Shown here: piece after piece, positions 1,404 through 61,041 of the stretch
Layout of the letters: the number at the start of each line of letters is the position of its first letter
Position numbering within the stretch: position 1 is the first letter of the stretch
Source: Nitrospira sp.
GTDB lineage: Bacteria; Nitrospirota; Nitrospiria; Nitrospirales; Nitrospiraceae
NCBI GenBank assembly: GCA_036984305.1
Contig: BQWY01000001.1
Span: 2,315,501-2,379,500, forward strand
DNA length: 64,000 nt
Reading direction: 5' to 3'
Notes under the pieces: model-generated
Told to the model about the DNA's origin: nothing
Database searches by the model: none
Seen by the model: the letters and a program-made list of their open reading frames with translations, nothing else
Made by a program: the position numbers and the translations under genes

Positions 1404-1790
1404 ATGAATCCGGCCGATCTGCGCTACCATGAAGAGCATGAGTGGGTTCGAGTCAACGGATCGCAAGCCACACTGGGAATCAGCGACTACGCCCAGGACG
1501 CGCTTGGCGATATCGTATTCATCGACCTCCCAAAAGCGGGCACGACGATCAGTTCCGGGCAACAAATCGGGGAGGTGGAATCGACGAAAACCACCTCGAG
1601 CATTTTCTCCCCGGTCAGCGGTACCATCGCAAAGGTCAACGGGGACTTGAAGGACCATCCGGAAGCCGTGAACAGCGATCCATACGGCAAGGGGTGGATG
1701 GTGGTCATCGAGCTCTCCGACCCAACTCAGGTCGATGCGCTGATGACGTCCGCCCAATACGACGCGTTTTTGGCCAAGCAGAAGGGCTGA
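1404..1790 (+). CDS. gcvH: Glycine cleavage system H protein
   Basis: 128 residues, normal length for GcvH, the lipoyl carrier that shuttles the aminomethyl group in glycine cleavage. The lipoylation site is the lysine at about residue 62 in GEVESTKTTSS, preceded by the typical YAQDALGDIVFIDLP strand. The ATG at 1404 has a GGGAG ribosome site and gives the usual short N-terminus. A lipoamide dehydrogenase follows 75 bases downstream, but GcvP and GcvT are not in the window, so service to another lipoyl system cannot be excluded. Confidence 0.93.
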   Translation: MNPADLRYHEEHEWVRVNGSQATLGISDYAQDALGDIVFIDLPKAGTTISSGQQIGEVESTKTTSSIFSPVSGTIAKVNGDLKDHPEAVNSDPYGKGWMVVIELSDPTQVDALMTSAQYDAFLAKQKG

Positions 1791-1864
1791 GGTTTCGACT
1801 CGATCGAGAAACGGGCGATTGCCCTCAACCGACTCCTTCCTCCATTCCTACGCACGTCCCCATC

Positions 1865-3292
1865 ATGTCGCCCCCTCTCCACATCGTCCTGATCGGCGCC
1901 GGACCCGGTGGGTACGTCGCGGCCATTCGCGCGGCCCAACTCGGAGCGCGAGTGACAGTAGTGGAGCGGCAGGCGCTCGGCGGCGTCTGCCTCAACTGGG
2001 GTTGCATCCCGAGCAAAGCACTCTTGTCCGTCGTGGAGCTGGGCGACAAGGCCAAAAAGGCCGCGGACTTCGGCCTCCAATTCGGCGGACCTCCGACGTA
2101 TCACCTGGCCCAGATGGTGGAACGGAAGAACAAAGTCGTGACGAACTTGGTGAGGGGGATCGCCACGTTGTTTAAAACGTGGGGTATCGAGCACATCGAC
2201 GGAACGGGTCGACTCACCGACGGACATACCGTGCTCGTGACGTCGAAGACTGGAGAGGAGCGTCGGCTCACGGCCGATGCCATCGTCGTTGCAACCGGAT
2301 CCTCGTGGCCGAATCTGCCGATGTTTCCCGTCGACGGTCGGCGGATTCTCACCAGCAAGGAGGCCCTCGATCTGGACACCATCCCATCGAGCATGCTCAT
2401 CATTGGAGCCGGAGTTGAAGGCTGTGAATTTGCGTCGCTGTACAGTGGAATCGGCACGCAGGTCACGGTCGTGGAATTGCAGCACAGAATTCTCCCTTTG
2501 GAGGACGAGGAAATTGCCGGCCTGATGGACCGAGAGCTACGCAAGCGTGGCGTGACATTGCTCACGGGTACGACCGTCCAGCACGTGCAGGGCTCCCCAT
2601 CGAGCGTTCGCTGCACTCTGAAGGATGAGTCCACCGTGACCACCGACTGCGTGCTCGTTTCTGTCGGGCGTGGCTTCAATTCGCACGGTCTCGGCTTATC
2701 CGAGGCGGGAGTGAAGCTTGGTCCGCGAGGCGAGATCCTGGTCGACGAGCGCATGCAAACCAGTGTCCCCGGCATTTACGCCATCGGCGACGTCACGGGC
2801 AAGGCCATGCTCGCGCACGTGGCGTCGGCCCAGGGCAAGGTCGCGGTGGAAAATATTCTCGGGCATAGGCGGACCATCGACTACAGCGTGATTCCGGCAG
2901 GGATCTTTACCTTACCCGAGATCGGACGTGTCGGCCTCACTGAAGCCCAGGCACGCGACCGGGAAATCGCCGAGGGGCGCAATCCGGCCGATACGCTCCG
3001 AATCGGACGATTTCGCTACCAGGGGATCGGCAAGGCCCAAGCAACCGGCGATACCGCAGGGATCTATAAAATCGTTGCCGAGGCCTCGACAGGAGTCTTG
3101 CTCGGTGTGCACATTATGGGAGCCCATGCGGCGGATCTCATCCATGAGGCTGCATTGGCCATGCGTGTTGGTGCCACGGTCGAGCAAGTGGCCGACATGA
3201 TTCATGCCCATCCCACCTTGGCGGAGGGAATGATGGAGGCGGCCGAGGACGTCTCAGGGAAGGCTATTCATCTTGCCAGGAAGCGCACGTGA
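1865..3292 (+). CDS. lpdA: Dihydrolipoyl dehydrogenase
   Basis: 475 residues, the usual size for the E3 flavoprotein that reoxidises dihydrolipoyl groups with NAD+. Visible features: FAD-binding GAGPGG at residues 11-16, redox-active disulfide C42/C47 in GGVCLNWGCIPSK, a central NAD-binding GAGVEGCEFA, a second FAD motif GIYAIGDVTG, and the C-terminal catalytic His-Glu in HAHPTLAEGMMEA. The ATG at 1865 places the first glycine motif right after the start; the longer open frame upstream overlaps gcvH and is not coding. It probably forms an operon with gcvH. Confidence 0.94.
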   Translation: MSPPLHIVLIGAGPGGYVAAIRAAQLGARVTVVERQALGGVCLNWGCIPSKALLSVVELGDKAKKAADFGLQFGGPPTYHLAQMVERKNKVVTNLVRGIATLFKTWGIEHIDGTGRLTDGHTVLVTSKTGEERRLTADAIVVATGSSWPNLPMFPVDGRRILTSKEALDLDTIPSSMLIIGAGVEGCEFASLYSGIGTQVTVVELQHRILPLEDEEIAGLMDRELRKRGVTLLTGTTVQHVQGSPSSVRCTLKDESTVTTDCVLVSVGRGFNSHGLGLSEAGVKLGPRGEILVDERMQTSVPGIYAIGDVTGKAMLAHVASAQGKVAVENILGHRRTIDYSVIPAGIFTLPEIGRVGLTEAQARDREIAEGRNPADTLRIGRFRYQGIGKAQATGDTAGIYKIVAEASTGVLLGVHIMGAHAADLIHEAALAMRVGATVEQVADMIHAHPTLAEGMMEAAEDVSGKAIHLARKRT

Positions 3293-55082: not shown

Positions 55083-56312
55083 CTAGAAGCCGAGGGCCTT
55101 CTCCAGATCCTCCTGGCCCTTCTTGAACTGTTTCTTTTCAGCGGCATCCTTTTTCTTCGTCAAGGTCTCCAGCTCCGCTGCCTTTTTCTTGAGCGCCTCG
55201 CCCTCTGCCTTGTTGGCCAGTTCTTCTTTTTCTTCCGCCAAGGAGCTGAGTTGAGCCGCCTTGATGAGGTCGTCCGATACCGTCATCCACGACAACCGAT
55301 ACCCGGGTTTCCTTAGTGCCTGCTCTTGATAGACCACGACGTACTTTGTGGGGTAGCGTCTCTTACCGATCTGCTGCTCCTCCAGCACATAGACCGTCGG
55401 TGTCCCATAGAGAGTGGGCTGGTAGAAATCGAAGAATGCCCGGCCCATACGTCCCTGTGTCGACACCGCTTGCATCCGTTGCATGTACACGGTGAAAGCC
55501 TGTAGATTCGTCGCATCGGGAGGTTTCTCATTCTCCAACTGTTTGCCCGCCGCCTGTTGGGCTTGATCGAGCGCTTCTTCTTCGTCTTGGAGCTGATAGC
55601 GGTACTGCTCTTTGAATTGTTCCCATTTCAACGGACCCTTCTTGGCTTTCGACTTGTAGAATTGCCCCGGATCGCTTTTGCCTTTTATGACATACGAGAG
55701 ACGCCCCTTCGTCGCATCACCCGAGTCGAAGAGATAAACGCTGTCCGGAGCCACAGGCATTCCGAACTTGCCGGCATCGGGTGGCACTCCCGGTGCGAGC
55801 CCTGCTTTCTGAGGGGACAGAAATCGTTGCCCGAGCAAACCAAGGGCATTTCCTTTCCCTCGGGAGACAGTTTGCAACCAGGCCCTTCTGACGTCCGGTA
55901 CCGGGTCGTTGGCCATTCGTGCCAACATGGGGACATCGCTATCCGTCGGACCGATCATCCCGATCGCGTCCAACACGGCAATGCGCAACTCCGGCTCCTC
56001 GCTCTTAAATACTTTCAGCAGTGTCGGCAAAAATTCCCGGTTCGCAGTGGAGCCGAGTGTCAGGATATCTTCCTTCAAAATTTCGAGCGCCTGCTTGCGA
56101 ACTTTTTCACAGGACGCATCGTTCGCCGCCTTGCCCACGCAATCGGTGACATACGTTTTCACCGTGGCATCTTTCGGTGAACTGGCTGTGACCTCAGATG
56201 GAGGAGCGAAGCCCGCCAGCGACGTCGCCAGCGTTGGTGTCGGCATGGCAACCAGGATCGAACCAATCGACAGGACTAGAATTCGGGAACGAGAACAGAG
56301 TGTCGGTGTCAT
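55083..56312 (-). CDS. Secreted HEAT-repeat-like protein with C-terminal coiled coil
   Basis: 409 residues. A signal peptide (ILVLSIGSILVAMPTPTLA) is followed by HEAT-like repeats at about 60-160 (FLPTLLKVFKSEEPELRIAVLDAIGMIG, MANDPVPDVRRAW; each seen as a run with the LRxxVLxAI pattern). A middle region of unknown fold follows, then a Lys/Glu-rich coiled coil at 355-405. Probably a protein-binding platform in the periplasm. Its start overlaps the stop of the next gene upstream (ATGA). Confidence 0.72.
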   Translation of the reverse strand: MTPTLCSRSRILVLSIGSILVAMPTPTLATSLAGFAPPSEVTASSPKDATVKTYVTDCVGKAANDASCEKVRKQALEILKEDILTLGSTANREFLPTLLKVFKSEEPELRIAVLDAIGMIGPTDSDVPMLARMANDPVPDVRRAWLQTVSRGKGNALGLLGQRFLSPQKAGLAPGVPPDAGKFGMPVAPDSVYLFDSGDATKGRLSYVIKGKSDPGQFYKSKAKKGPLKWEQFKEQYRYQLQDEEEALDQAQQAAGKQLENEKPPDATNLQAFTVYMQRMQAVSTQGRMGRAFFDFYQPTLYGTPTVYVLEEQQIGKRRYPTKYVVVYQEQALRKPGYRLSWMTVSDDLIKAAQLSSLAEEKEELANKAEGEALKKKAAELETLTKKKDAAEKKQFKKGQEDLEKALGF

Positions 56313-57016
56313 CGGCTCCCTCCTCCCTGGAGCGCGGTTCCGAAGGTCTGCAAGCGCGCGTTGGACTGATTGGCGCGTTCCTGTTGCGCCAAGGCTTGTT
56401 GCAATTGGTTCTTGGCGCTGGGGTCGAGCTGGGTGGGTTGGCAGTGTTTACGTTGCATGTCTTGCTCGCGTTTGAGTCGTTCCTGTTCCTTCTGGTAGCC
56501 TTCCCGCTCTTCTTTCAAGTAATCCACAACGGTCTGGTCGCTGCGCCAATCGACGAAGGGATTCAAGCTCTTGTGTGCTTTACAGGCCTTCGCGTGCACG
56601 TTTTCATGGTCCTGGAGAGCGCCCCGAAGACAGGCCGTGGCATTCGGATTGACCGTGACCTCACACGTCGGACCCGTGTTCGCGCCGTACGCTCGTGAAC
56701 CCTTGATTTGCGCTGGATAGAAGACGAAGCCCAGCTCCCCCATTAGCACCGTGCTCCGAAACTCCTCCGTATTCATGTTATTCTGATCGGCGCCGTCTCC
56801 TAACGTCATCGAACCGTTGGCCCGTCCTTGCCAGAACTTGATCATGCGGTCCAGCTCACGCATCGCGGCTTCGGTTTGCTGGAGACGGCTTTTCACGTCC
56901 AGTTTGTCTTGCTCCGTGCACCCGCAGGGTGCGCCTCCTTGCGCGTGAAGACCAGCCGGAGCCGAGGCGAACGCCAAGACTGCCACGGTGACGCGTACTA
57001 CGGCCCAAGTGTTCAT
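56309..57016 (-). CDS. Secreted protein with an HExxH motif
   Basis: 235 residues. Signal peptide (VTVAVLAFASAPAGLHA), then a cysteine pair CGC, a helical part and the motif DHENVHAKAC, giving H137, E138, H141 of a HExxH zinc site with a cysteine four residues on. Further cysteines (TCEV, ACL, KHC) suggest disulfides. The C-terminal ~70 residues are Gln/Glu-rich coiled coil. Peptidase activity is inferred from the motif only; no third ligand is certain. Translated together with the HEAT-like protein. Confidence 0.7.
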   Translation of the reverse strand: MNTWAVVRVTVAVLAFASAPAGLHAQGGAPCGCTEQDKLDVKSRLQQTEAAMRELDRMIKFWQGRANGSMTLGDGADQNNMNTEEFRSTVLMGELGFVFYPAQIKGSRAYGANTGPTCEVTVNPNATACLRGALQDHENVHAKACKAHKSLNPFVDWRSDQTVVDYLKEEREGYQKEQERLKREQDMQRKHCQPTQLDPSAKNQLQQALAQQERANQSNARLQTFGTALQGGGSR

Positions 57017-57062
57017 AGAGCCCCCTATACCAATTGAAATGTGATGCAGTATAACGGTCCCC

Positions 57063-58469
57063 GTGAAATCGAAGAGATCATGCCGTCAGTTCTCTGTCCT
57101 GTTCCTGTTTCTTGTCACTCTCTTGGTCTATTCCGGCTCGTTCCACGGCGATTTTCAATTTGATGACTATTCGACAATCCTCAACAATCCGCACTATGCC
57201 GACTGGAGCACGTTTGTCGAACATGTCGGACATATCGTCCGTCCCGTCTTGTCGTTGACGTTCCTCGTCGATCGCACACTGTACGGTTCCTCGCCAACCG
57301 GCTATCACATCCTGAATCTGCTGCTCCACCTTGGGTCGGGCATCTTGGTCTACCTCATACTCACGCGAGCCGTCGTGGGCGAGGGTAGTCAACTGCCTGT
57401 GTGCACCGCACTGCTGTTTCTCATCCATCCCCTGCAAACCGAAACCGTGACCTACATTTCCGGTCGGGCATCAGGTTTGATGGCGTTCTTGTACCTTCTT
57501 GCCTTCTTCCTGTACGTCAAGGCGTCAGAATCGCAACATGACGAGAACTTCCGCCGAATCTATCTCTCAGGCGCCGTCGTCGCCGGGCTCCTGGCGATCA
57601 GCTCGAAAGAAACGGCTGTGACGCTTCCGATGGCATTGGCGCTCTGGGACGTTCTTATCAGGAGACTTCAAGGCCCTTCCCTTCGCGAAGCATTCCTCTC
57701 ATCCCAGCTTCCATTCTGGATTCTTCTCGTCTTCGCGGGAGGCTGGGCTTGGAGTCATCCGCGCTATTCCTATCTCGTGGAATTCAGCTTTCAACTGCGG
57801 CCTGTATTGGACAACGTACTGAGCGAGGCTCATGCCATTGTCTATGCTCTGCTGTTGTTCGTTTCTCCCTCGAATCAGAACTTCGACCATGACCTGCCTG
57901 AACTTCACTCATTGGTTCAATGGCCGTTGCCATTCGACTTACTCGTCATCGGAATACTTCTCGCCGCCACCATCCTCATGGCCCGCCGTCTTCCCTTGTT
58001 TTCCTTCGGCACCGGATGGTTCTTGCTGCAGCTTCTCCCCACAAGCCTTGTTCCGCGTGCAGACCTCTTGAGCGAACGCAACCTCTATTTGGCATCCATC
58101 GGGCTGTTTCTCGCATTTATCGTGCTTGCCGCTGCGGCCCTGATTTGGTGTCAGGAACAGATGAAGCCACCTCGGCTGGTTTCAATGGTCGGCGCCACCG
58201 CCGCCCTTGTCGTCGTGGTTGGGCTCTGTACGATGACCGCTCACCGCAATACATTCTATCGGGACCAGCTTGCTCTCTGGTCAGATACTGTCACGAAATC
58301 GCCTCACAAAGCTCGTCCTCATAACAACCTGGGCCATGCCTATGCCTTAGAGGGCGAATGGGACAGGGCCATCGATGAATTTCGTCTCGCCGTCCAATTG
58401 GATCATGCCTACGTGCTTGCCCAGAGCAATCTCCGTCACGCGTACCTGCATCGAGTCGGCCGGGAGTAA
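57063..58469 (+). CDS. TMTC/GT39-like membrane glycosyltransferase with TPR
   Basis: 468 residues from GTG 57063. About 10-11 membrane segments. The first loop has YSGSFHGDFQFDDYSTILNNPH, with the acidic DD pair typical of GT-C enzymes such as O-mannosyltransferases, and RPVLSLTFLVD after it. The C-terminus (about 415-468) is a TPR pair (RPHNNLGHAYALEGEWDRAI). Such TMTC-like proteins use polyprenyl-phosphate sugars to glycosylate exported proteins. Divergent from the secreted protein pair. Confidence 0.8.
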   Translation: MKSKRSCRQFSVLFLFLVTLLVYSGSFHGDFQFDDYSTILNNPHYADWSTFVEHVGHIVRPVLSLTFLVDRTLYGSSPTGYHILNLLLHLGSGILVYLILTRAVVGEGSQLPVCTALLFLIHPLQTETVTYISGRASGLMAFLYLLAFFLYVKASESQHDENFRRIYLSGAVVAGLLAISSKETAVTLPMALALWDVLIRRLQGPSLREAFLSSQLPFWILLVFAGGWAWSHPRYSYLVEFSFQLRPVLDNVLSEAHAIVYALLLFVSPSNQNFDHDLPELHSLVQWPLPFDLLVIGILLAATILMARRLPLFSFGTGWFLLQLLPTSLVPRADLLSERNLYLASIGLFLAFIVLAAAALIWCQEQMKPPRLVSMVGATAALVVVVGLCTMTAHRNTFYRDQLALWSDTVTKSPHKARPHNNLGHAYALEGEWDRAIDEFRLAVQLDHAYVLAQSNLRHAYLHRVGRE

Positions 58470-58484
58470 CGTCTTTCCACATGG

Positions 58485-59327
58485 TTACCCAGCAGGACCT
58501 TCCAACACAGTCAATCCATACCGGAGCAGGCGAGTGGCCTGCTCCCATTGGTCCTGGACGTTGAGCCCGACCAGCAGTAACCGGTGCCCGCCCTTAAACA
58601 TGCTCGCAACGAGGCAGCGACCGGCTTTGCTCGTATACCCGGTCTTGACCCCCGTCACATCAGGGTCCAGCAACAGTTCGTTCGTGCTGTGCAGGGAAAC
58701 CTGCCGCTTCCCATCTACCGTCGTGATGGTGCGGGTGACCGTGCGGACCATCATGGAGACGGCGGGAATCCGAAGGGCGTGATCCGTCAACTTGGCCAAG
58801 TCCACTCCGGTCGAATAGTGGCCCGGCGCATCGAAGCCGCACGGGTTGGCGAAATGCGTATTCTCTAATCCAAGGGCATTCGCTCGATCATTCATCATGG
58901 CGACGAAATGAGGCTCATCACCACCGACGTGCAAGGCGACCGCTTCACAGGCGTCATTGGCACTGTTGACGAGCATCGCAGCGAGCAGGTCCCGCAACAG
59001 GTATCTTTCGCCCGTGCGGAACTTGAGCGAAGAGCGGTGCCTGAGCGCGCGCCGATCGATTTGCACCGTTTGCATGAGAGAGGCGGACTCGAGCGCAACG
59101 ACCGCCGTCATAATTTTCGTGAGGCTGGCTGGGGGGAGCCGGAGAGTGGAATTCTTCTCAAGCAAGACCCGTCCGGATTGCAGCTCGATCAAATACACGG
59201 CAGATGCCTTGATGACCGGCCGGTCTTCCCGTGAGAGCTCAACCGGCGCTTCGGCCATGCCGCCACGGGGCGACAGTGTAAGTCCCACCAGAAGACACGC
59301 GGCCAACCCGGATGCTCGACACAGCAC
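58485..59327 (-). CDS. D-alanyl-D-alanine carboxypeptidase (PBP5 family)
   Basis: 280 residues with a signal peptide. The three serine-acyl-enzyme motifs are complete: SLTK at 68-71, SAN at 122-124 and KTG at 228-230. This is the low-molecular-weight PBP (peptidase S11) that trims peptidoglycan pentapeptides in the periplasm. It is shorter than E. coli PBP5 (~400), and the C-terminal anchor domain is missing, so it would be a soluble form. Confidence 0.92.
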   Translation of the reverse strand: MLCRASGLAACLLVGLTLSPRGGMAEAPVELSREDRPVIKASAVYLIELQSGRVLLEKNSTLRLPPASLTKIMTAVVALESASLMQTVQIDRRALRHRSSLKFRTGERYLLRDLLAAMLVNSANDACEAVALHVGGDEPHFVAMMNDRANALGLENTHFANPCGFDAPGHYSTGVDLAKLTDHALRIPAVSMMVRTVTRTITTVDGKRQVSLHSTNELLLDPDVTGVKTGYTSKAGRCLVASMFKGGHRLLLVGLNVQDQWEQATRLLRYGLTVLEGPAG

Positions 59328-59335
59328 GATGTTCC

Positions 59336-60163
59336 TCAGTGACCGAACAGACCTTTCAACATATCGGTGGCCTTTCGCATGTCCGATTTCTCCTCAGACG
59401 GAGCGTCGGATTCAGGAGCGGGCGGTGTGTCTTCCGGCGGCGGTGTCACCTCAGGCCGGCCGATACTTTGCCGACCTGCGTTCGGGCGCATGCCTTCCAT
59501 GTCCGGTCGGCCGGCCCGTGGCCCTATACCTGGCCGTCCCATTCCCGGGTTGTCCATCATCCCACCCATCATTCCGCTCATGTCGAACTTGATATATTCA
59601 TCCGGAATCTCGAACAGCTTGGCGTCCTGTTTGCCGATCTTCACGTTGCTCAGTTCGATGAGCATACGCTTCTTGTCGTTGCCCTCTTTGTAGAGTAGGT
59701 CCTGCTTCAGATTAATGCCCTCCTTGGTCCGCCAGGAGAAGCCGCCGTATTTTTTGCCGTCCGTGCTGGTCGCGATCGTTTTGTATTTGGTGACTTTGAT
59801 ACCGTCCATCGTTTCTTCGCCCACGACGGTGTCTTCGTAGGTCCATTGCGACGGATCATTCCGCTGCTCCCGTCCGCCTCCGATGGGATGCTCCATGTAC
59901 ATCTTTTCTGACGGCATGAGCATCCACATCACCTTAGTGTCGTACCGGAAGATCATAACGGCGCCGTCGCCGGAGCCCGTCAGCATTTCCTTGCGCTCTT
60001 TGGTGGGCGTGGCATAGATCCGTTGTTGGATCGTGCCTTCTTCGCTTTGAATCGTGGAATCAGCGGAATATTCAGCCTGAGGACGCTGCATCTGAACTGC
60101 GTGGGCCTGTGATACTGCGACCAGGCACAAGAATACCGTCACAACCAAGATTGGGCGCGGCAT
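59336..60163 (-). CDS. DUF4412-domain secreted protein
   Basis: 275 residues with a signal peptide (ILVVTVFLCLVAVSQAHA). The mature part (YSADSTIQSEEGTIQQRIYA, MLMPSEKMYMEH, FEIPDEYIKFDM) matches DUF4412, a lipoprotein-carrier-like beta fold of unknown role. After about residue 190 comes a Met/Gly/Pro-rich tail (GMMGGMMDNPGMGRPG) of possible metal-binding or disordered character. Separated by eight bases from the carboxypeptidase gene, probably co-transcribed. Confidence 0.8.
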   Translation of the reverse strand: MPRPILVVTVFLCLVAVSQAHAVQMQRPQAEYSADSTIQSEEGTIQQRIYATPTKERKEMLTGSGDGAVMIFRYDTKVMWMLMPSEKMYMEHPIGGGREQRNDPSQWTYEDTVVGEETMDGIKVTKYKTIATSTDGKKYGGFSWRTKEGINLKQDLLYKEGNDKKRMLIELSNVKIGKQDAKLFEIPDEYIKFDMSGMMGGMMDNPGMGRPGIGPRAGRPDMEGMRPNAGRQSIGRPEVTPPPEDTPPAPESDAPSEEKSDMRKATDMLKGLFGH

Positions 60164-60296: not shown

Positions 60297-61041
60297 TCAC
60301 AGTCGGGCGACCACTTGAGCGGCGGGGTCTTTATCCGAGTAGGGTAGTCGGATCAGCCTCCCTAACCGAACGTCGTCAAACGTCCGATATCCCGGAACGC
60401 CGATTGTGATGGCGTCCTGAGGGATGTCCGTCCGGAGGGTCCCGTGGAGGCGATCCCACACCGTCAAACCGCTGGACCAGTTCGAGTTCGTTTCGCTCGG
60501 CACGATCGAATGATGAATGCCGTGCAGCCGCGGCGTCATGATCCACCGCATCAGCTGTTCTTCGATCGTCGGGTGTAGACGCATGTTCGAATGATGAAAC
60601 GCCACGGAGAGCAGCGACAGGAGCTGCCAGAGCCGCAGGACCGGCGGCCTGACGCCGAATCAGCACGACCTGGGCCGCACGCCACAACACCGAAATGGCC
60701 ATTTCGAGAGCATGAAATCGGACTGCAGTCGATACATCCAAATCGAGATCGATGTAGTGCACCTTATAGATACGCCATTAGGCCGGGACCTGGTGTGTCA
60801 GCACGTGCCACACATAGAGGGAGTAATCGAGGAGAACGAGCACAACGGTGCTGTCCCATGGGCGCCGGAAGGCCGACGTAAGAGGCACGGCCCCCCAGCG
60901 ATGCCTTTCGACGAGGGCCGTCATCCGCTTGGCAATCGGCTGTTCCAGGATGATCAACGTGAGGGCGGACAGGGAAGCCACGGCACAGCAAGCCGAACCA
61001 TGCCATGACGAGTGCGGGCGTATCCAAGCGCCAGGTTTCAT
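60297..61041 (-). pseudogene. Disrupted sterol desaturase-family gene
   Basis: Homologous pieces lie in two frames: LDYSLYVWHVLTHQVPA, then TAA at 60780-60778, then WRIYKVHYIDLDLDVSTAVRFH in the same frame, then a one-base shift near 60655-60661, after which LSVAFHHSNMRL and HGIHHSIVPSETNSNWSS follow. These are the histidine boxes of fatty acid hydroxylase/sterol desaturases. One box reads HYID where HHxD is expected. A further shift near 60970-61000 is possible. At least two lesions make a working product unlikely. Confidence 0.75.

Follow-up and report, generated by a model that had tools for sequence, protein, structure and literature searches.

A co-inherited pair of exported proteins in Nitrospira, one with a predicted gluzincin-type zinc site and the other with HEAT repeats

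Two neighbouring genes of Nitrospira sp. (Nitrospirota; Nitrospiraceae) encode exported proteins, one with an HExxH motif and the other with HEAT-like repeats, and the question they raise is whether the two belong together and what they might do in the cell envelope. The genes lie in a 64,000-nt stretch of assembly GCA_036984305.1 (contig BQWY01000001.1, positions 2,315,501-2,379,500, forward strand), which is referred to as the window. The parts encoded here are of known kinds; their combination is undescribed. Searches of the literature for Nitrospira together with TMTC, and for Nitrospira together with metallopeptidase and HEAT repeat, found no published description of the unit.

The pair and its neighbouring genes

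The two proteins, termed A and B, are encoded as follows:
56309..57016, minus strand: protein A gene, a 235-aa predicted exported zincin with a signal peptide at about residues 1-26
55083..56312, minus strand: protein B gene, a 409-aa exported protein with a HEAT region, a small beta domain and a long helix

The original prediction was of an exported pair with a four-base overlap, and this is what the window contains: both ORFs are present, they share the four bases ATGA, and each protein starts with a signal-peptide-like hydrophobic stretch and has no further strongly hydrophobic segment. Across 26 loci including the window, with start codons picked by Shine-Dalgarno score, the four-base overlap was confined to the window and one other locus (L047). 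At the remaining 24 loci the gap from A, or from a short protein that takes its place in some genomes, to B was 24-68 nt, with a strong Shine-Dalgarno sequence. The spacing from A or the short form to B therefore lies between -4 and +68 nt, in the same order, at 26/26 loci.

A conserved leader precedes the A gene:
57017..57055, minus strand: conserved leader GTTATACTGCATC ... GGTATAGGGGG before the A start codon, with a -10-like box and a ribosome-binding region, present at 21 of 26 loci

In the form GTTATACTGCATC-N-GGTATAGGGGG the leader stands before both full-length A and the short form at these 21 loci, and its exact core occupies 57043-57055 in the window. Exact copies of TTATACTGCATC number 11 in 16 genomes, nine of them at this locus and two elsewhere (L125 and L126); the leader is practically locus-specific in these 16 genomes. 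A role as a wider regulon signal is unsupported, since two off-locus copies are about what chance would be expected to give. At L126 (G036:C55 near 5180) an ORF starts about 67 nt downstream of the exact core, which may be chance. At another locus (L065, 7015-7950), a partial tandem duplicate of A with the leader precedes the full A gene.

The genes on the other side of the leader are the following:
57063..58469, plus strand: TMTC-like GT-C membrane protein carrying a single TPR at its C-terminus; gene divergent to that of A
58485..59327, minus strand: locus-specific S11 D,D-carboxypeptidase of 280 aa (Pfam Peptidase_S11, E 2.3e-57), co-inherited
59336..60163, minus strand: DUF4412 exported protein (Pfam E 1.5e-10), adjoining the S11 gene and not exclusive to the module

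The divergent TMTC-like gene is present at all 25 near-complete B loci, the S11 gene at 23 and the DUF4412 gene at 21, and in the remainder the contig ends there. Among 99 genomes, an orthologue of the TMTC-like gene (54-100% identity) occurs in 16, precisely the genomes that carry B (G021 being counted on a contig-end fragment of B), and a second S11 gene (65-100% identity; one a contig-end fragment) occurs in the same 16. The general S11 gene, at about 43-53% identity, is separate, some S11 gene being present in 66/99 genomes, and DUF4412 is distributed more widely than the module (36/99). In G019 an S11 gene adjoins a 40%-identical TMTC-like gene with neither A nor B, and the S11/TMTC-like pair is therefore separable from A/B. 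The locus S11 protein resembles the PBP5-like S11 D,D-carboxypeptidases (DacA/DacD), its best NCBIfam match being DacD, below the cut-off; it differs from them in being a second, locus-bound paralogue beside the family-wide one. Further along the window (60297-61041, minus strand), ORFs in different frames look as if they came from a single sterol-desaturase/fatty-acid-hydroxylase-like gene that may carry a frameshift.

The label TMTC-like, which had been given to the divergent neighbour, holds in part. The protein contains all three of the GT-C motifs DD, KE(T/Q)xxT and ERxxY, with D34, D35, K182, E183, T187, E338, R339 and Y342 invariant in 17/17, and its gene is co-inherited with the pair; on the other side, PF08409 (TMTC_DUF1736) did not match it at E <= 10 in a search of the genome. 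The motifs listed for TMTC proteins in the available text of PMC7801869 include M1, M2, M4, M5 and M7. Like the TMTC1-4 O-mannosyltransferases of the GT-C/PMT clan, the neighbour protein has D34D35, H57..R60P61, K182E183T..T187 and E338R339..Y342 together with TPR, and these motifs match M1, part of M2, M4 and M7 of that list. Unlike TMTC1-4, it has no TMTC_DUF1736 match, no DW motif identified for M5 and one TPR only.

Predicted zinc site of A and architecture of B

The residues of A on which its assignment turns are these:
56594..56608, minus strand: HENVH, A residues 137-141, with predicted zinc ligands H137 and H141 and predicted catalytic E138, in 20/20 alignment rows; helix 128-147 of the model
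56507..56509, minus strand: E170 of A, predicted third zinc ligand, in 20/20 rows; helix 163-191 of the model
56495..56497, minus strand: Y174 of A, one helical turn past E170, an invariant tyrosine in 20/20 rows

A was aligned with 19 relatives from named genomes (20 rows; 18-82% identity to A). H137, E138, H141, E170 and Y174 are invariant in all 20 aligned family members, as are C31, C33 and C118, and the same His, Glu and Tyr residues are invariant in 13/13 of an overlapping A set. Because it is invariant across this range of identity, the HExxH of A is more than a chance occurrence. The possible zinc site of the original prediction is thus upheld, with E170 as a third-ligand candidate besides, and no substitution of H137, E138 or H141 was seen within the paired family. 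In an AlphaFold2 model of A (mean pLDDT 78), the HExxH lies in helix 128-147 and, after two short strands, E170 and Y174 lie in helix 163-191; mean pLDDT is 97 for residues 131-140, 91 for 141-150, 89 for 161-170 and 97 for 171-180. Of the features of gluzincins, MA(E), A has the HExxH with invariant His, Glu and His (20/20 rows) and a downstream Glu on a later helix, namely the predicted ligand E170, which sits 29 residues past H141. As read from the alignment and the model, this motif layout is a gluzincin-type signature, and the predicted zinc site of A is well supported.

The cysteine near the motif, which had been pointed out along with it, is conserved in the main A subtype and has a different bearing. 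C129 and C145 flank the HExxH in this subtype, where they are conserved together, and both are absent from a diverged subtype. Their joint absence suggests that C129 and C145 form a disulphide. As a zinc ligand C145 was rejected, because it is gone together with C129 in the diverged subtype while the HExxH remains.

No family scored above its cut-off for A in Pfam, NCBIfam, PHROGs or PADLOC, and in these collections the A family is unclassified; the best Pfam scores, below the cut-offs, were to Enkurin (E 0.14) and HicB (E 0.15). Comparison of the A sequence with the PDB gave nothing below E 0.23, and Foldseek searches with the models of A and B gave no match at E <= 0.001. In further structure comparison, A matched flagellins and chemoreceptor sensor domains with Z up to 7.2, which reflects a common helical arrangement; peptidase folds were absent among the matches listed for A, which excludes nothing.

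Protein B is composed of the following parts:
55875..56129, minus strand: HEAT region of B, residues 62-146 (Pfam HEAT_2); structural matches to HEAT-like folds span about 110 residues (Z up to 12.1)
55287..55397, minus strand: beta segment of B, residues 306-342, conserved and with invariant columns; strands in the model
55095..55274, minus strand: long C-terminal helix of B, residues 347-406, a 60-residue helix in the model with a conserved QxDLEKxLG end

The HEAT-like repeats and coiled coil foreseen for B were borne out by Pfam matches over the cut-off (HEAT_2, E 2e-10, 41.3 bits against a cut-off of 27.7; HEAT, E 5.8e-8, 32.7 bits against a cut-off of 23.5) and by the modelled 60-residue C-terminal helix. 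By sequence, B matched mostly artificial alphaRep/HEAT proteins in the PDB, and its N-terminal part resembled alphaReps in structure comparison (Z up to 12.1). Mean column identity in the B alignment is 63%. The window's own genome also holds a separate 110-aa ORF (L115, 1447-1779, minus strand) with 42-43% identity to the C-terminal domain of B, which appears to be a remnant of B or a stand-alone copy, and G018 has a short match to the same domain that is similar to this ORF.

Distribution of the pair and a clade with only the tail of A

A was matched in 15 of 147 relative genomes, and in 15/15 B directly adjoins it. This is the co-occurrence in other genomes that had been proposed as a check, and A and B form a genuine coupled pair. 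Matches to B at E <= 0.001 were obtained in 49 of the 147 genomes and were near full length in only 22; the rest comprise the contig-end fragment of G021 and short matches, mostly to the HEAT region. In a set of 395 Nitrospirota genomes, B is present in 23, with zincin A upstream in 15 and a short exported protein in eight, and the A profile matches 17, of which 15 have it beside B and two carry unpaired relatives. A scan of GTDB species genomes with two short peptide patterns of B, which distant B would escape, gave 27 B loci with titles of Nitrospira, Nitrospiraceae, Nitrospirae, Nitrospirales or Nitrospirota, and no B relatives were seen outside Nitrospirota by these patterns. Relatives of the pair were not found on plasmids or viral contigs. 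At the 25 near-complete loci the gene before B encodes zincin subtype 1 in 17, the diverged subtype 2 in two and the short protein in six. Beyond linkage, the co-evolution signal between the A and B sequences appears weakly positive, with a partial rank correlation of 0.18 that was reached by 73 of 2000 permutations (17 loci; TMTC-like gene accounted for).

The short exported protein occupies the place of A in 8/8 zincin-less B genomes, is 97-150 aa long (its start at L111 is uncertain) and resembles the end of A:
56324..56443, minus strand: helical tail at the C-terminus of A (about residues 192-231), identified by profile comparison with controls; helix 199-231 of the model; kept in the tail-only clade

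When the mature short proteins (a profile of eight rows) were compared with mature A, they aligned to the A tail over 50 columns with a probability of 89 and a score of 40; among the controls, the highest score in 200 column shuffles was 15.4, with 13.5 reversed and 11.6 versus B. With signal peptides kept, 49 columns aligned to A residues of about 179-229 with a probability of 96.5. The claim of tail similarity rests on profile comparison; single-sequence HMM search mostly misses it, as in 6/8 cases many shuffles of the short protein scored as well as the protein itself, and in 2/8 all of the 500 shuffles except one scored lower.

The short form makes up one clade in both the B tree (93/91) and the TMTC-like tree (100/100), and in each tree zincin subtype 2 falls into two separate positions. 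The short-form clade probably lost the catalytic domain while retaining the tail. Given the single clade, the common leader and the tail similarity, one loss of the zinc domain in which signal peptide, promoter and tail were kept is the simplest account. Since the zinc domain is missing in 8/23 B genomes, catalysis would be dispensable to the module, and since the tail is kept where the enzyme domain was shed, it would have a role of its own. No other fact argues as strongly for the tail having a separate role, or against a purely catalytic one, as its survival without the enzyme. Genomes that have naturally lost the catalytic domain and kept the tail make it straightforward to test which portion of A is important to B.

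Possible roles of the pair

We give about an even chance to the reading in which A is a periplasmic zinc endopeptidase, docked by its tail on the scaffold B, in a lineage-specific envelope-remodelling module. A would be a Sec-exported gluzincin-type enzyme (HExxH plus E170) at work in the periplasm, its C-terminal helical tail would dock on the HEAT/coiled-coil scaffold B, whose gene follows directly, and B would position the substrate for A. The pair would be one arm of a Nitrospirota-specific module whose other parts would be the TMTC-like lipid-linked-sugar transferase, the extra D,D-carboxypeptidase and usually the DUF4412 protein, and one clade would have shed the enzyme domain and kept only the tail. 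The locus adds to the nitrite oxidisers an unclassified family of predicted zincins with a fixed scaffold-like partner, and links it, through all-or-none inheritance, with a GT-C sugar transferase and an additional D,D-carboxypeptidase. Very improbable, in our judgement, is that the pair is the peptidase arm of a glycoprotein-processing machine in which A, held by B, cleaves substrates glycosylated by the TMTC-like enzyme in the manner of an O-glycopeptidase. The TMTC-like enzyme would then act on exported proteins, possibly on the Ser/Thr/Pro-rich linker of B itself, and clades without the zinc domain would retain the glycosylation and scaffold arms.

A toxin role was weighed against the preferred endopeptidase reading. 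On this view A would be an antibacterial zincin that brings its own export signal, B would be the matching immunity protein in the periplasm, and the two would make up a minimal effector-immunity pair in which B outlived a decayed toxin domain. The A profile picks up, in another Nitrospirota genome, the C-terminus of an RHS-core protein (L090 of G325, 1492-2106, minus strand; core E 4e-22) with HETSH and then E..Y, a weak single match of 18.7 bits (the best of 2000 shuffles reached 10.5; E 1.2e-4 within its genome) that has a similar CL...HExxHxxxC...E..Y layout. This hints that A may share its fold with peptidase domains of toxins such as those covered in the available text of PMC3482391. The RHS C-terminal peptidase toxins described there (Tox-MPTase, Zhang et al. 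2012) are HExxH zincins like A; unlike them, A is a free-standing protein encoded on the chromosome in a syntenic setting, with B as its partner, and it lacks the fusion to a trafficking module expected of a polymorphic toxin, having a signal peptide only. A precedent is VgrG2b, which the available text of PMC6899460 presents as a gluzincin toxic in the periplasm with a small immunity gene following. Like the C-terminal gluzincin of this Pseudomonas aeruginosa T6SS protein, A would combine an HExxH, a downstream Glu as third ligand, a periplasmic location and a partner gene next to it; unlike VgrG2b, A has its own signal peptide, no VgrG spike and no DUF4157 match in a Pfam scan, and it is partnered by a conserved HEAT protein of 409 aa in place of a small immunity protein. 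A toxin role nevertheless looks quite doubtful to us, as the pair is single-copy in this genome, keeps a fixed place co-inherited with envelope genes and has no match in PADLOC, plasmids or viral contigs, while B is large and well conserved and the RHS match is weak.

Two further readings were considered. If the metal site of A were structural and A no working enzyme, serving only as a helical subunit of a B complex, then domain loss would be tolerated; that one clade has lost the entire zinc domain fits this. So does an unpaired full-domain relative of A in which HEKSN takes the place of HExxH (L089 of G307, 1504-2109, minus strand), which has an N-terminal hydrophobic stretch and lies between ORFs that we take to be transporter-like and acetolactate-synthase-like. 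We consider a non-enzymatic A unlikely, however, since E138, both histidines, E170 and Y174 are invariant at 18-82% identity, and E138 or Y174 would not be expected to be necessary for a purely structural site. It is rather less likely still that A/B, the TMTC-like gene and the S11 gene are merely neighbours on a mobile or lineage-sorted island and work separately. An S11 gene adjoining a distant TMTC-like gene in G019, the patchy distribution, and a correlation between A and TMTC-like distances that falls to 0.01 once B is accounted for all point in that direction, but the divergent TMTC-like gene is kept at every near-complete B locus (25/25), none of 99 genomes has its orthologue without B, and A and B stay close and in the same order at 26/26 loci.
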